From an uncultured Marinomonas sp. (lineage in GTDB: Bacteria; Pseudomonadota; Gammaproteobacteria; Pseudomonadales; Marinomonadaceae): 52,503 nt of DNA. Below the pieces are notes generated by a model. The model worked only from the letters and a program-made list of their open reading frames with translations. It was not told the DNA's origin and did not search any database. Below, piece by piece: positions 8,699 to 36,499 of the stretch. Numbering within the stretch: the first letter of the stretch is position 1; the number at the start of each line of letters is the position of its first letter. The DNA lies in NCBI GenBank assembly GCA_938009755.1, contig CALLIL010000025.1:1-52503 (forward strand), in the 5' to 3' direction. The position numbers were made by a program, and so were the translations under genes.

Positions 8699-9342
8699 AT
8701 GTTCTGCCCAACAATAAATTGAACACAAAAAGCGTAATGTGCAGTGCTTACACCCCCCTCCGGGAAAACATGTATAAGCGAACAATTAACGTAAAGATAA
8801 TTGTAAAGCACAAACTCACTTCACCAAAAAACCGAAGTATTATAAAGATCATTACTCGCCTTGACCAGCACACGACACCGTCTTTGATCCCCAACTTTTA
8901 CTTAAAAATGAAACTTTTTTGTTATTCCCAACATTTTTGAACAAAAAAAGAACAACTCATTTCCACAATACACCTTCACTATAAAAAGCTTAAATAAAAA
9001 ATAAGCCATTCCAATCAATTAAGTTATAAGCCTACACATATACAAGTCATGCTGAGTTGCGATAATGCTAGGAAAAACGCACAATATCGGTCGACTTAAT
9101 AAGCGCAGCATAGAGCAAAATAGTCACAGTTAAAAAGAGCCTCGCAACGCTGCTGGATATTTATCATTACGGACAATATAAAGAATGCGATCACTCACGA
9201 AGTTGCTTATCATAAAAATAATAGCTCACACTCAAGATAAGTGCTTATTTTTGCTGACAACACGACGATTTAAATCGCCAGCCACACAAAAACATGCCAC
9301 ACCATCAACACTCTCCGCCACAAGAGAACGATAAAAAACACT
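8699..9342. other. 640-bp intergenic region between nqrA and mfd
   Basis: Divergent gap that must hold the nqr and mfd promoters. The nqr leader carries a GGAGGGGGG tract (minus strand, 8753-8761) about 55 nt before the nqrA ATG that is not followed by a usable start codon. A 12-bp palindrome (cgatttaaatcg, 9266-9277) lies about 65 bp before mfd. No convincing gene, RNA or terminator was seen in the middle, and the sequence is AT-rich with stops in all frames. Confidence 0.6.
8839..8867 (-). promoter_or_regulatory. Candidate sigma70 promoter of the nqr operon
   Basis: On the minus strand TGGTCA and TATAAT are separated by 17 bp. The -10 is perfect and the -35 matches four of six consensus bases. 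Transcription would start about 135 nt before nqrA, leaving a long leader. This is a pattern match by eye. Confidence 0.45.
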
Positions 9343-31057: not shown

Positions 31058-32044
31058 CTAGTCACTGTCTTTTTCATTATTTCTGTGTCTGTCTGCATAT
31101 TGTCGATTGCTCGCTTGCTGACGTTGAGGCACCGCCGCCGCTATTTTCGCTAAGCGCTTCGCTTCTTTTGCGGCTTTTGCTTCTTCCACCAGCTGTTCTT
31201 CGTAAGCAATCATGGCAGGGGTTTCCATGATGTAAGGGCCAATTGCACCAGTTCTCACATCATTTAAAAAGACTTCAGCGGATTTATGCATGTCCACTTT
31301 ACCGCCAGATCGTAATGCACCGCGTTTCGATCCGATGACTTTTAATACATCATAAGGCTCTGAATCGGCCGTAACATCTTTCAACTTATAACGAGTTATT
31401 AGTGCTTCTAAATAATCCGATAAGAAAAATTTCAGCCCTACCAAAGCTACGTCTTCATAATCAATCGCCGTGTCACGGACCGCGCCTGTGACAGCCAAAC
31501 GATAACTGGCGTCTGGATTTTCAATTTTAGGCCACAAAATACCTGGCGTATCTAATATCTGAAAACCATTGGTGACTTTTAACTTTTGCTGAGCTTTGGT
31601 TACCGCAGGTTCATCGCCGACTTTCGCCACTCGACGACCTAACAAGGCGTTCATTAAACTGGATTTACCTACATTGGGAATACCGGCAATCATCGCGCGA
31701 ATCGGCTTTTCTGCCGTACCTCGATGAGGCACCATTTGGCTCACCCATTGGCTTATTTTGGCGACATCCGCTTTATCAACTGTCGAGAACGGATGCGCAA
31801 GCACGCGTTCATTGCCACGCCAATGCTCAAGCCACAAATCCAAACGACTTCTGTCGGCCAAGTCTTTTTTATTCAACAAACGCAGCACTGGCACATCGCC
31901 ACGCAATGTCGTCAACATAGGGTTTTGGCTGGAATCAGGAATACGCGCATCTAATACTTCGATGACAATATCCACTTGCGTCATGACTTCTTCAATCTCA
32001 CGACGCGCTTTGTTCATGTGTCCCGGATACCACTGAACGGCCAC
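31058..32044 (-). CDS. ylqF: Ribosome biogenesis GTPase YlqF (RbgA)
   Basis: 328 residues, circularly permuted GTPase that acts in late assembly of the large ribosomal subunit. The G4 motif NKKD (58-61) precedes the G1 motif GIPNVGKSS (121-129), then G3 DTPG. The N-terminal WYPGHMNKARREI is the family signature. Start codon GTG with AGGGG seven bases upstream. The C-terminal 40 residues are Ala/Lys/Arg-rich. Confidence 0.95.
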   Translation of the reverse strand: MAVQWYPGHMNKARREIEEVMTQVDIVIEVLDARIPDSSQNPMLTTLRGDVPVLRLLNKKDLADRSRLDLWLEHWRGNERVLAHPFSTVDKADVAKISQWVSQMVPHRGTAEKPIRAMIAGIPNVGKSSLMNALLGRRVAKVGDEPAVTKAQQKLKVTNGFQILDTPGILWPKIENPDASYRLAVTGAVRDTAIDYEDVALVGLKFFLSDYLEALITRYKLKDVTADSEPYDVLKVIGSKRGALRSGGKVDMHKSAEVFLNDVRTGAIGPYIMETPAMIAYEEQLVEEAKAAKEAKRLAKIAAAVPQRQQASNRQYADRHRNNEKDSD

Positions 32045-32210: not shown

Positions 32211-32251
32211 CTGATGTAAATCAAAGCGCCTTATGGTGAAATCGCTATACT
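32211..32251 (+). promoter_or_regulatory. FNR/Anr-like box and -10 element, class II spacing
   Basis: CTGAT-GTAA-ATCAA at 32211-32224 matches the FNR/Anr consensus TTGAT-N4-ATCAA in nine of ten bases. A TATACT -10 lies at 32246-32251 with no usable -35. With a start near 32258 the box is centred at about -40.5, next to the -41.5 position known for FNR-activated class II promoters, which need no -35 element. Confidence 0.6.
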
Positions 32252-32257
32252 CACTTT

Positions 32258-32370
32258 TCCTTATGAGCGTCCGTATGGAATCTGCACCATACTGCGTTTG
32301 TTGGGTTGTTCTCTCGATCGGATCCTATGGATCCACTTAGCCGAGGCTGTGTGTGGCCTCGGCTTTCTTT
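32258..32370 (+). ncRNA. Candidate oxygen-regulated small RNA
   Basis: About 113 nt from the inferred start to the end of the T-rich tract. It contains hairpin 1 (GTATGG / CCATAC, 32273-32292, 8-nt loop), a U/G-rich single-stranded stretch (32293-32315), hairpin 2 (GGATCC-TAT-GGATCC, near 32320-32334) and a terminator hairpin. No open reading frame with a ribosome-binding site is present and no plus-strand gene lies upstream, so the terminator has no coding gene to serve. The arrangement recalls FNR-activated regulators such as FnrS or PhrS, but I see no sequence similarity to either. Confidence 0.55.
32339..32370 (+). terminator. Orphan plus-strand Rho-independent terminator
   Basis: Perfect 9-bp GC-rich stem AGCCGAGGC / GCCTCGGCT with an 8-nt loop, followed by TTCTTT. 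On the minus strand the hairpin is not followed by T residues. The nearest genes on both sides lie on the minus strand. Confidence 0.8.
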
Positions 32371-32412: not shown

Positions 32413-32799
32413 TCATGACGATCTTTTTAACAGCTGATTAAAAGACTCTGTGGAATAAAACTTAGTACTACTCAATGATGATGAATTACCTGTGGCAAAT
32501 TTTTTGTCAAAAAATATCGCTGGACCGTACACATAACCACGCACAGAACCAAAACTGGATAAACTTTTTATAACCGTTAAGTTGTACTTATTGCCTAAAT
32601 AAAAAACAGTTCCGCCATCTGCAGGCAAGGGCGCGTCAAGGTCCAATTTCGCATGGATCGGCTTCCGCCCTTCTAATACCGCGTTAAAATCCTCAGTCGC
32701 CTCAATAAAAACATCCGCATCTTCTTTTGGTATCGAGGATAAATCAGCGCCCACAAAAAGGTCATGTTGCATTTTTTCTACACTCATAAAGTCTCGCAT
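32413..32799 (-). CDS. Hypothetical protein of the immunity island
   Basis: 128 residues (124 if started at the second Met, which has GAG five bases upstream; the first ATG has AAGGA only three bases upstream). No signal peptide or membrane helix. A central DGGTVFYLGNKYNLTV and a C-terminal SSTKFYSTESFNQLLKR are the only distinctive stretches. I do not recognise it. It follows the Imm11-type gene by 37 bp and is probably cotranscribed with it, so a role in the same toxin-immunity context is an inference from position. Confidence 0.6.
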   Translation of the reverse strand: MRDFMSVEKMQHDLFVGADLSSIPKEDADVFIEATEDFNAVLEGRKPIHAKLDLDAPLPADGGTVFYLGNKYNLTVIKSLSSFGSVRGYVYGPAIFFDKKFATGNSSSLSSTKFYSTESFNQLLKRSS

Positions 32800-32836
32800 T
32801 ATTCCTTGTTAAACATTTTCAACCCAGCGTGCTCAA

Positions 32837-33418
32837 TTACAGCATACCGGGTTCATATTCATCGTCCGTTAAGAACATAAAACCTGTTAAGCCAGCGCTT
32901 TCTATGGCTTCTTTAATACTTTTATGAACCACTATATGCATAACACTCTCTTGCAAACGGACGATTTTATGACCTAATAACTTACTTTCGTCGAAACACA
33001 TTTCTTCAATTTCCAGAACATTCCCTTGTCGACTCAATATGACCGAGGATTTGTCCATATCTAATCCACTAATAGCCCCAACAATATTAGCGACTTTATA
33101 CGGTACTTTTTCACCCATAGGCGCATAAGTTACTTCTGTGTTCAAATATTGAACATTGTCTACCTCAAGTGTCGTGAGTAAATCTATAAACTGTTCTGAG
33201 AATATCAACGTGCTGGAAGGACCATGTATATCGCATGGTAAAAACGCATCAACGTCTTTAGCTTGCTTATCCACTGAAAGCGTTATTTCATATGTTTCCG
33301 TCACATCATGAATAAAAACACCTTCATTTACGAACATGTCGGGGCCTTTAATCACATTTGCTGTGGGGCCACCCCACGGCGTATCGATAAGCATTAAATA
33401 AAAATTTTTGTCATCCAT
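32837..33418 (-). CDS. Imm11-type (DUF1629) immunity protein
   Basis: 193 residues from the ATG before DDKNFYLM, which has AAGG seven bases upstream; the longer reading is unsupported. The order of a Y/F-rich start, LLTTLEVDNVQYLNTEV, VPYKVANIVGAISGLDMDKS, a FDESKLLGHKIVRLQES segment and an ending HKSIKEAIESAGLTGFMF is the Imm11 pattern, a family of immunity proteins found beside polymorphic toxins. Its order of segments parallels that of the gene at 47352-47897. No toxin gene is next to it, so it appears to be an orphan. Confidence 0.72.
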   Translation of the reverse strand: MDDKNFYLMLIDTPWGGPTANVIKGPDMFVNEGVFIHDVTETYEITLSVDKQAKDVDAFLPCDIHGPSSTLIFSEQFIDLLTTLEVDNVQYLNTEVTYAPMGEKVPYKVANIVGAISGLDMDKSSVILSRQGNVLEIEEMCFDESKLLGHKIVRLQESVMHIVVHKSIKEAIESAGLTGFMFLTDDEYEPGML

Positions 33419-33481
33419 AAACAAACCTTTTGCATTTTTCTTGTTTGGTGGAACCAATAAATAGACTTGCGAGATAATGTT

Positions 33482-33766
33482 TTATTTTTGGTTTTCCTGA
33501 GCGGCTCGCCAGTCAGCATCGGCTTTTTTCACAGCGGGATCATCATGAAAATCAACAATCTGTCTAGGCTGATACACACTTGGCTCATTAGCAATTCGTT
33601 TGGCTATTTCATGGATGCCGTGCTGCAAGTATTCTGCTTTTTCATCAGCGTTCAACATAACGTCCCTGCCATACATAGCAACCGTTCCACAGAGAACAGA
33701 CAGAATGTATTCATCATTACATTGGTACAAGGTCCAACTCCATGATTTTTGATCAATTACCTTCAT
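33482..33766 (-). CDS. Small hypothetical protein, immunity-like
   Basis: 94 residues with QKSWSWTLYQCNDEYILSV followed by CGTVAMYGRDVMLNADEKAEYLQHGIHEIAKRIA and a PSVYQPRQI tail. Proteins of this small, Trp-rich, CGxxxxY type are common in immunity gene clusters, but I cannot assign a family with certainty. It precedes the Imm11-type gene by 63 bp on the same strand. The ATG has no clear Shine-Dalgarno sequence. Confidence 0.65.
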   Translation of the reverse strand: MKVIDQKSWSWTLYQCNDEYILSVLCGTVAMYGRDVMLNADEKAEYLQHGIHEIAKRIANEPSVYQPRQIVDFHDDPAVKKADADWRAAQENQK

Positions 33767-34127: not shown

Positions 34128-34697
34128 CTAAAACTCGCGTTCAACAAACGCCAACAGTTCTGGATAGAGTTGTAAAAAAGGGTCTTCTGCTTGCTGAATG
34201 ATTTCGGGGAGTTCGTCGACGAAGTCTTGCAAATGATGTCCATGTTTCCAGCGTCGCATAATAGAGAGAATGGCGTTTTCGACGCCTTGAATCGTACCGA
34301 GGTGCGATAACCAATTATGACTTTCGAGTGAAGTGATCATGCTTTCTAATCGCTCTGGGCAACGGTGCTTATCTTTGACTAAGCCGATAAGCGCTTCATC
34401 ACAAAAGTCAGACAATGGCGTTTCGCTGAATCTATCCCAATATTGAATAAGCCAATAATCCATGGCGATGTCTTGAACAATGCCTGCGAAACGTCGTCGC
34501 CCTTTTCTTGGAGTGGCGCGAAAAGCTAAGCTAATTTCATGACTGTCGACCATAATGTCGACTTGTTGATGCAGCCGCCAACCTTGATGTAAATCGGGTT
34601 CAAGCGATTTTACATCCACAGGGAAATCGCCAAGCAAGTTACCAGCCCAAGAAGTATTAGTAATTGAAGCTATGTGTAAATGCGCAAAATAATTCAT
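34128..34697 (-). CDS. acpH: Acyl carrier protein phosphodiesterase
   Basis: Removes the 4'-phosphopantetheine arm from holo-acyl carrier protein. 189 residues of the AcpH (DUF479) family: MNYFAHLHIAS, GNLLGDFPVD, LHQQVDIMVDSHE, GRRRFAGIVQDIAMDYWLIQYW, in which the His and Asp residues resemble HD-domain metal ligands. Complete at both ends. It is divergent from the ABC transporter operon, with a 269-bp gap. Confidence 0.9.
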   Translation of the reverse strand: MNYFAHLHIASITNTSWAGNLLGDFPVDVKSLEPDLHQGWRLHQQVDIMVDSHEISLAFRATPRKGRRRFAGIVQDIAMDYWLIQYWDRFSETPLSDFCDEALIGLVKDKHRCPERLESMITSLESHNWLSHLGTIQGVENAILSIMRRWKHGHHLQDFVDELPEIIQQAEDPFLQLYPELLAFVEREF

Positions 34698-34966: not shown

Positions 34967-36499
34967 ATGAAAATAAAACGCATTTTACTCTGTTGTATCA
35001 CGCTGATGTTATCTCATAACTTGTCTGCGACGACATTGCGAATGGCATTTGACTCTGACCCTATTTCCCTTGATCCTCATGAGCAGTTGTCTGAAGGCAC
35101 ATTGCAGTTTTCCCATTTGGTTTTCGACCCACTTTTGCGTTGGGATCAAAATGACAATTTTGAACCTCGTTTGGCAAAACGATGGGAACGAGTTGATGAA
35201 CGCACCGTTCGTTTCTTCTTGCATCAAAATGTGGCGTTTCATTCAGGCAACCCTTTTACTGCACAAGATGTGGTTTACACCATTCAACGATTAAAAACCT
35301 CGCCGGATTTTCGCGCCATGTTCGATACCATCGAGTCGGCTTCTGTGGTGGATGATCATACCGTGGATGTTCACACATTTGATCCAAGCCCGTTATTGCT
35401 CAATATCATGGCGTACGTTTTCCCTATCGATAAGCGCTTCTATCAAGGCCGAGATCAAATCATCAAATATGGCAATTCATTTGCCTCTCACAATGTTTCT
35501 GGCACAGGGCCTTTCATTCTAAAAAGCAGAGAGCTTGGCACAAGAATGGAACTCGATCGTAACCCACAATATTGGGACACAAATTCACGGGGCAATGTAG
35601 ATAAAATCATCATGACGCCAATACGCACGGACTCAACAAGGTTAGCCGCGCTGCTATCAGACGATGTGGATTTTATTTCGCCTGTCTCGCCTATCGATAT
35701 AAAGCGTGCGGAACGCTCGACAAACATTCAATTAGTGACCATTCCAAGCACAAGTATTTTGTTGCTACACATGAACCAAGCAAGGCGCATCGAATTTCAA
35801 GACGTGCGCGTCAGAAAAGCCATTAATCTTGCGATCAATCAAACGTTAATCGTGGACAAAATCCTGAAGAATTTCGCCACGCCAGCTGGACAATTAAGCC
35901 ACGCCCGTTTTCTTGGTCATCGAGAAGAGTTGCTACCGAAATACGATTTAAAGGAAGCTCGACAATTGATGAAAGAAGCGGGCTACGAAAAAGGCTTTCG
36001 AGTCAGTATGATGGCACCAAACAATCGTTACGTCAGTGATGAAAAAGTCGCTCAAGCCATCGCCGCTATGTTGGCAAAAATCAACATTCAAGTGGACTTA
36101 AAAACCTTACCCAAAGCACAATACTTTAAAGAGTTCTCCCATAAAAGCGCCGACATTATGACGCTTGGCTGGCAATCCGACACCATGGATTCAAACAACT
36201 TATTTGAATTCATCGTGGCGTGTGAAGATGAAAACACCGGACTGGGCGCTTATAATGCGAGCAAATATTGCCAACCAGAAATCGACAAACGCATTAAACA
36301 AGCCAACCGAGAAATGGACATTGATCAGCGCCAGCGCTTGTTGCAAGAAATCGAAAGCATCCTTTATGACGATGCCGCGGTGGTTCCGCTTTATTGGCAG
36401 TCTGTTATTTGGGCCGCGAAAAACGACGTCAAAATACGCGACATTATCAATGATCAAAACAACCCTTACTTAGGAGATTTGGTCGTTGAAACAAAGTAG
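34967..36499 (+). CDS. Peptide-type ABC transporter substrate-binding protein
   Basis: 510 residues, signal peptide of about 21 residues ending SLSA/NLSA before TTLRMAF. SBP_bac_5 family: DSDPISLDPHEQLSEGTLQ, LAKRWERVDERTVRFFLHQNVAFHSGNPFTAQDVVYTIQRL, VSGTGPFILKS, RVRKAINLAINQ and DIMTLGWQSD. It captures a peptide or other small ligand in the periplasm for the permeases encoded next. The ligand cannot be told from the sequence. First gene of a five-gene operon. Confidence 0.93.
   Translation: MKIKRILLCCITLMLSHNLSATTLRMAFDSDPISLDPHEQLSEGTLQFSHLVFDPLLRWDQNDNFEPRLAKRWERVDERTVRFFLHQNVAFHSGNPFTAQDVVYTIQRLKTSPDFRAMFDTIESASVVDDHTVDVHTFDPSPLLLNIMAYVFPIDKRFYQGRDQIIKYGNSFASHNVSGTGPFILKSRELGTRMELDRNPQYWDTNSRGNVDKIIMTPIRTDSTRLAALLSDDVDFISPVSPIDIKRAERSTNIQLVTIPSTSILLLHMNQARRIEFQDVRVRKAINLAINQTLIVDKILKNFATPAGQLSHARFLGHREELLPKYDLKEARQLMKEAGYEKGFRVSMMAPNNRYVSDEKVAQAIAAMLAKINIQVDLKTLPKAQYFKEFSHKSADIMTLGWQSDTMDSNNLFEFIVACEDENTGLGAYNASKYCQPEIDKRIKQANREMDIDQRQRLLQEIESILYDDAAVVPLYWQSVIWAAKNDVKIRDIINDQNNPYLGDLVVETK

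Follow-up and report, generated by a model that had tools for sequence, protein, structure and literature searches.

A predicted oxygen-responsive small RNA of the genus Marinomonas, very probably activated by FNR, and the putA ribosome-binding site as its candidate target

The small RNA (sRNA) FnrS of E. coli and other Enterobacteriaceae, which we take to be Rfam family RF01796, is similar in length to the sRNA predicted here in Marinomonas, and its neighbours and seed differ from those of the latter. FnrS stands alone and carries a class II FNR site, both of which are predicted for the Marinomonas RNA too, and it shuts off functions that are dispensable without oxygen; the Marinomonas RNA, however, gives no match to the FnrS covariance model. 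Among the targets of FnrS is sodB, whereas putA, to our knowledge, is not one of them. The FNR site of FnrS is centred at -41.5 in the cited passages (PMC3032703; PMC8139620), one of which also places the sRNA under the control of ArcA and CRP (PMC8139620). An FNR-activated sRNA of N. gonorrhoeae, also called fnrS, is described in the cited passages as a likely functional equivalent of FnrS; like the Marinomonas RNA it has a class II site, a stem-loop at its 5' end, a part without structure and a terminator, but its gene sits inside a coding region, on the other strand (PMC3032703), and its host is unrelated.

Two sRNAs of P. aeruginosa are also relevant. SicX, as far as the cited passages describe it, has an Anr motif upstream, is induced at low oxygen and controls a ribosome-binding site by 5'UTR seed pairing (PMC10247376). 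The likeness to the Marinomonas RNA, drawn from this description, consists of the FNR/Anr-type box upstream and of two features that are predicted in Marinomonas, induction at low oxygen and seed pairing at a ribosome-binding site; SicX, however, activates translation of ubiUVT through a pairing proposed to be Hfq-independent (PMC10247376), whereas repression of putA is predicted in Marinomonas. Repression of putA by sRNA pairing, as predicted here, is described for LapS with a GFP reporter (PMC12131859). LapS, however, is phosphate-related and derives from the lapA 5'UTR, with no oxygen control stated in the cited passages, and it pairs with putA at -75 to -41 (PMC12131859), whereas the Marinomonas RNA is predicted to pair at the ribosome-binding site.

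The DNA analysed here (the window) is a stretch of 52,503 nucleotides from an uncultured Marinomonas sp. The features of interest are the following.

32211-32224, plus strand: FNR/Anr box CTGATGTAAATCAA, carrying 9/10 bases of TTGAT-N4-ATCAA, with its centre at about -40.5
32246-32251, plus strand: -10 element TATACT, 21 bp 3' of the box and without a -35 element
32258-32370, plus strand: predicted sRNA of about 113 nt, with a predicted start (+/-1-2 nt)
32259-32305, plus strand: hairpin 1, with loop UCUGCACC at 32281-32288
32306-32319, plus strand: unpaired linker UUGUUCUCUCGAUC, the proposed seed, containing UCUCU-N-GA at 32310-32317
32320-32334, plus strand: hairpin 2, GGATCC-TAT-GGATCC in the window, variable in sequence but with the stem kept
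32339-32370, plus strand: intrinsic terminator, with a hairpin of 10-11 bp at 32339-32364 and the tail TTCTTT
31058-32044, minus strand: rbgA/ylqF ribosome biogenesis GTPase (TIGR03596), the divergent neighbour of the sRNA in the genus
32413-33766, minus strand: three inserted genes, the middle one Imm11 (PF07791), between the sRNA and acpH and not part of the sRNA
34128-34697, minus strand: acpH-like ACP phosphodiesterase (PF04336), convergent with the sRNA

Across the genus acpH was identified at 37 of 44 loci and is convergent with, and just downstream of, the sRNA core at all 37. The three-gene insertion bearing Imm11 is found at one of the 44 loci, that of the window genome, in which acpH lies 1.8 kb from the sRNA beyond the insertion, and the sRNA unit is intact. 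The nearest plus-strand open reading frame (ORF) downstream encodes 92 aa (33467-33745) and is antisense to a minus-strand ORF at 33482-33766, and the first gene-sized one begins at 34967, in agreement with an earlier note on this DNA, which had seen no plus-strand gene nearby. Since no plus-strand gene follows closely, the sRNA region is not a leader. Elsewhere in the window are found an nqrA-Marinomonas RNA (RF03035, an sRNA family of Rfam; 8716-8849, minus strand, 143 bits) and a gene for a fatty acid cis/trans isomerase (PF06934; 27442-29790, minus strand).

The near-consensus box described in the earlier note is indeed present at 32211-32224, and, taking +1 as 32258, the placement of TATACT with the box centred near -40.5 is confirmed, as is the missing -35, a promoter scan having returned no sigma-70 promoter with such an element. 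By itself the box is unremarkable, the window containing eight matches with one mismatch against 4.35 expected. The combination of box, spacing and TATACT, a pattern composed after the relatives had been seen, occurs once in the window and in none of 100 shuffles. Among 48 genomes of the genus, 37 have a perfect (10/10) CTGAY-N4-RTCAA box 21-23 bp 5' of TATACT or TATAAT; counted from the sRNA side, either hexamer stands 21-23 bp 3' of the box in 38 of the 43 genomes that carry the sRNA core. The script behind these counts chose the best box match 60-150 bp 5' of the core and then, 17-26 bp 3' of that box, the best hexamer. G056 has a 9/10 box at the same spacing as the perfect ones; three genomes (G001, G007 and G050) have weaker boxes followed 21 bp downstream by TACAAT or TACACT; and in G005 and G012 the spacing between box and -10 element is lost.

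When 38 distinct promoters are anchored on the box, 7 of its 14 positions are invariant (2-4 and 11-14), and 37 of the promoters have C at position 1. The sequence drifts over the 30 bp on its 5' side, where no base exceeds 0.72 bit, and the spacer mostly stays below 0.6 bit, except for box-anchored bases 16, 17 and 23 (1.26, 0.84 and 0.81 bit) and the two bases 5' of the -10 element (0.86 and 1.27 bit), which are also above the rest of the spacer. Conservation of the -10 element itself is there by construction, because the set was chosen by the TATACT/TATAAT hexamer. An FNR-type box thus appears to stand at the class II position, as reckoned from the -10 element, before a predicted RNA gene.

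The RNA (32258-32370) is predicted to fold at -45.2 kcal/mol (z -4.2) into three hairpins, at 32259-32305, 32320-32334 and 32339-32364, as had been proposed from the window alone. The GC-rich terminator, earlier called perfect, is present on the plus strand, though its tail is broken by a C in the window genome. The proposal of an exposed seed holds in part: a conserved unpaired stretch exists, at 32306-32319, but a few bases downstream of the proposed one (32293-32315), the 5' half of which falls within predicted hairpin 1.

Over 42 distinct sequences of the genus, predicted to be 106-138 nt long, UCUCU-N-GA forms the only invariant columns outside the terminator; this invariance is partly by construction, because 12 copies were recognized by the motif itself. 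The covariance model, for which the motif was not used, found 31 copies, and each of these carries it too; the decayed copy of G020 is without it. G001 was left out of the alignment, the script having found no terminator there. The motif has a mean unpaired probability of 0.79 in these 42 sequences, against 0.40 for the whole RNA, and is mostly paired in two genomes, G005 and G012. A stem of at least 4 bp begins directly 3' of UCUCUCGAUC in 42 of 43 genomes, against 31% in shuffles. The loop of hairpin 1, UCUGCACC (32281-32288), is conserved in only one part of the genus, while the arms of hairpin 2 differ by genome (GGGC/GCCC, GGATCC/GGATCC, GAGCC/GGCTC, AGACATA/TATGTCT). Of the 9 consensus pairs of the terminator, 8 are altered on both sides in some genome with pairing retained, so that, in the sequences compared, both the terminator and hairpin 2 preserve their predicted structure through altered pairs. 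A helix proposed by RNAalifold (72-75/84-87) has no both-side change and overlaps the seed; it was not relied on.

A conserved ORF was sought in the 42 sequences and none was found; 18 of them have no ORF of at least 10 aa, which argues against a conserved small protein, and the 25-aa ORF of the window RNA is not retained among relatives. The features of Hfq-dependent trans-acting sRNAs, namely a U-tailed terminator, an unpaired conserved seed and an hfq gene, can all be recognized in the predicted gene and its hosts (Hfq, NF001602, in 48/48 genomes), and Hfq probably aids the sRNA.

As to distribution, a blastn query of 191 bp matched 9 of 37 other genomes, every one a member of this genus and with the locus adjoining rbgA. 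A covariance model built from eight sequences, that of the window included, found the RNA in 31 of 48 genomes of the genus, and in the rbgA-divergent region of the remaining 17 a box-like element and core were found in 12 more. The core is thus at the same locus in 43 of 48 genomes, most of them with the box, and hairpin 2 and the terminator keep their stems, so that the conservation in relatives that the earlier note had wished to see checked is there for these parts; it is this conservation that decides in favour of the gene. The genus comparison also supports its reading of an FNR-type class II promoter driving an sRNA of about 113 nt.

The core is absent from G017, G023, G040, G052 and G020. 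G020 (3.1 Mb) has a decayed sRNA copy without a box, and it is also the one genome of the 48 with no match to the N-domain of iron/manganese superoxide dismutase. In G052 the gap between rbgA and acpH is shortened and a terminator-like hairpin alone remains at the position of the sRNA. An rbgA tree was made from 46 genomes, G010 and G021 being left aside as their loci did not reach rbgA. Parsimony on this tree puts the absence of the sRNA at three changes, of which well-supported branches force at least two, and genomes in the intact state are found on either side of the midpoint root. From this pattern, the gene is probably ancestral to the genus and was lost more than once.

A pattern scan matched 22 stretches, and the same kind of locus occurs in 18 from Marinomonas and in one from Maribrevibacterium harenarium, the sequence of which was read; the other three are likely chance matches. 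In a wider search under strict filters, covariance models R1/R2 gave eight matches in 244 genomes, all in the same genus, and in 369 genomes only the window's own; R1 also missed 12 of the 43 genus copies, so that a diverged relative may exist elsewhere. No known RNA family matches the sRNA at the Rfam gathering score. Up to E = 10 there are three matches, of which the FnrS model is not one, and the best, Esr41, lies over the terminator region and scores 18.8 bits, the threshold being 102. A search of the open-licence literature on Marinomonas small RNAs, FNR and related sRNAs showed no paper on this sRNA among those listed. Judged from its sequence, the gene would therefore belong to a known kind, the FNR-activated sRNAs, but to a new sequence family without an Rfam match.

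That the gene encodes an sRNA under FNR, with transcription and FNR dependence taken from box, promoter and conservation, is very probable, and two other explanations have to be set against this one. Fnr (NF008365) scores above cut-off in 48/48 genomes, and the copy of the window genome, the one that was read, has CX2CX5C with a distal Cys and the helix ETVSR, which are the iron-sulphur cysteines and a DNA-binding helix matching the box. It is improbable, though less so than the absence of any sRNA considered below, that the box instead serves a different regulator of the CRP/FNR family (CRP, or a Dnr/NnrR-type NO sensor) and thereby another signal. Dnr-type proteins recognize nearly the same motif as FNR, and in 33 of the 48 genomes the Fnr model finds one or more additional matches, most of them weak. 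However, 13 of the genomes with a perfect box have, at E <= 0.001, one match to that model only, the Fnr equivalog itself, so that a second regulator of the FNR type is not needed there. The box motif also differs from the CRP consensus, a TGTGA-type palindrome. Furthermore hemN, an FNR/Anr target in other bacteria, bears a box of this kind. Within the 20 kb around fnr-hemN, compared in three genomes, the sole match to YTGAY-N4-RTCAR lies 58-72 bp 5' of hemN, between it and a divergent gene.

Very improbable is the view that there is no sRNA, the conserved hairpin being the terminator of convergent acpH and the promoter serving otherwise or arising by chance. In relatives the end of acpH does lie close to the terminator hairpin, which may well serve both genes; yet the T-run stands 3' of the stem on the sRNA strand, box and seed are separate conserved islands that a shared terminator leaves unexplained, and in the window the unit is intact even with acpH 1.8 kb away. 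An sRNA gene activated by FNR is thus the preferred reading, and the question becomes what its seed pairs with.

The best candidate target, a new proposal, is probably the ribosome-binding site of putA, although some genomes show weaker pairing or none. Through most of the larger clade of the genus, the putA leader CGGGAGAA-nn-CAACC-AUG is complementary to the linker UGGUUG-UUCUCUCG with a 2-nt bulge. The gene was traced through 47 of 48 genomes, the exception being the window's own, in the incomplete assembly of which (77.9% complete) putA was not found. With their own sRNA, the putA start regions of 42 genomes have a mean duplex energy of -16.4 kcal/mol, 31 of them at -15 or lower; the start regions used for comparison average -9.2 for rbgA (41 genomes) and -6.7 for sodB (24 genomes). 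Part of the putA pairing comes free, because the seed is anti-Shine-Dalgarno-like. putA first came to notice through G039, which supplied a perfect match among the 78 pattern matches of 14 genomes; this is a selection effect for that genome. The identity of the gene as putA was checked. A perfect seed match at putA occurs in that one genome only, and it was the comparison of energies that spoke for putA.

In two genomes rival start regions were sampled (about 9-10% of each genome, start codons being set by a simple rule). In G018 putA, at -18.6, pairs more strongly than every one of the 306 predicted start regions in the sample, the energies of which average -7.6 (sd 2.9) and at best reach -17.1. 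In G013, with linker UGACUG and leader CAGUCA, it reaches -19.5 and is stronger than all 328 sampled regions, but falls to -13.6 with the linker of G018, an energy as low as which is found at 10 of the 328. G002 likewise differs from the common form on both sides, with linker UGAUUG and leader CAAUCA. Among 30 larger-clade genomes, both pairing blocks are conserved, the bulged bases at -7 and -6 being more variable than these, and the proximal 6 bp are complete in 19, including G002 and G013. When seeds were swapped among genomes, in a permutation test that treats genomes as independent of descent, the cognate mean was reached in none of 5000 permutations for all 42 genomes and in one of 5000 for the larger clade; in the smaller clade, where pairing is weaker, the result was not significant (1224/5000).

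A number of genomes do not follow this pattern. G004 and G009 have a changed linker without a matching leader (4/6 proximal pairs), and proximal pairing is poor in G059 (2/6) and in G001, G005, G007, G012 and G050 (3-4/6). Against start regions sampled from G013, pairing as good as that of putA is found at 11% for G010, 17% for G021 and 7% for G050. Two genomes without the sRNA, G052 and G020, keep a putA that can pair (-17.4 and -16.8 with the G018 seed), while in the three other sRNA-less genomes it cannot (-6.2 to -10.7). In the light of the poorly pairing, unremarkable and sRNA-less genomes, confidence in putA is held at a level only somewhat better than even; that it is a direct target of the sRNA is, on the complementarity described, favoured to that degree.

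It is also possible, if rather unlikely, that the sRNA is FNR-activated and putA is not its target, or not the main one, UCUCU-N-GA pairing with other ribosome-binding sites. A scan for GAGAGAACA..ATG in 14 genomes gave 78 matches against 59 for the reversed control; one for TCGAGAGA..ATG in 10 genomes showed no recurrent gene among the matches listed and read (for each of these two scans, contexts were read at 30 loci and 20 stretches). A third scan, for ATCGAGAGAAC in 32 genomes, gave 44 matches, 26 of which are the sRNA gene itself, and contexts were read for 17 of the 18 others (all but that in G059). A perfect seed complement occurs at the start region of pdxJ (PF03740), and others at what we take to be thrC, a TAXI binding protein, fliL, hmuT and further genes, but among the contexts read no gene recurs in more than three genomes, whereas putA pairs strongly in 31 of 42. 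The start region of fnr pairs at -10.7 to -16.5 in eight genomes, in which GGGAGA or a similar sequence before the start codon pairs moderately with the sRNA linker; such pairing may form a feedback loop on FNR. In G019 and G045 a perfect 11-nt seed complement, which would be a match in a 5'UTR, lies about 115 nt 5' of a glutamine-synthetase-family gene that is below the cut-offs of all named families.

The start region of sodB, with only the linker compared, pairs no better than shuffled sequence (mean -6.7, 24 genomes), and sodB was set aside as a target. The 60 nt 5' of it are strongly conserved in the genus (CACCATTAACTGCTTGATAACAAGC..., with the start located at 27 of 30 loci), beyond what a ribosome-binding site requires, and perhaps form a regulated leader or the site of an sRNA of their own.

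With putA as the favoured target, the following course of events is proposed. At low oxygen FNR, in its 4Fe-4S form, would occupy the box near -41 and recruit RNA polymerase, in the manner of a class II activator, to the TATACT promoter, from which an RNA of about 106-138 nt, depending on the species, would be transcribed up to the intrinsic terminator. Its unpaired linker, (U)GGUUG-UUCUCUCG, probably assisted by Hfq, would pair with the putA mRNA over the stretch CGGGAGAA-nn-CAACCA(UG), which spans Shine-Dalgarno to start codon, and keep PutA (proline dehydrogenase / glutamate-semialdehyde dehydrogenase) from being translated; proline would thus be spared from burning while respiration is limited. 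We infer transcription, FNR dependence, Hfq binding and the direction of the effect on putA from what the sequences present, namely the anatomy of the gene, its conservation, structure and seed, the presence of fnr and hfq, and complementarity to putA in most of the genomes tested. The whole chain, a trans-acting oxygen-responsive sRNA that is activated by FNR and blocks putA translation, is judged rather more probable than improbable. The wider statement, that a genus-wide sRNA switched on by FNR couples oxygen to amino-acid catabolism by silencing the putA ribosome-binding site, with seed and leader having co-evolved, is evenly poised between true and false.

FNR-activated sRNAs seem to have had separate origins in several groups, and Marinomonas, a common marine genus outside the usual models, adds a well-delimited case. 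The losses of the sRNA and the decays of its promoter within the genus constitute a built-in natural experiment, and the paired changes of seed and target between species make the pairing of the sRNA with putA directly testable. If true, the link between oxygen and proline would be of consequence to bacteria that live on algae and animals.
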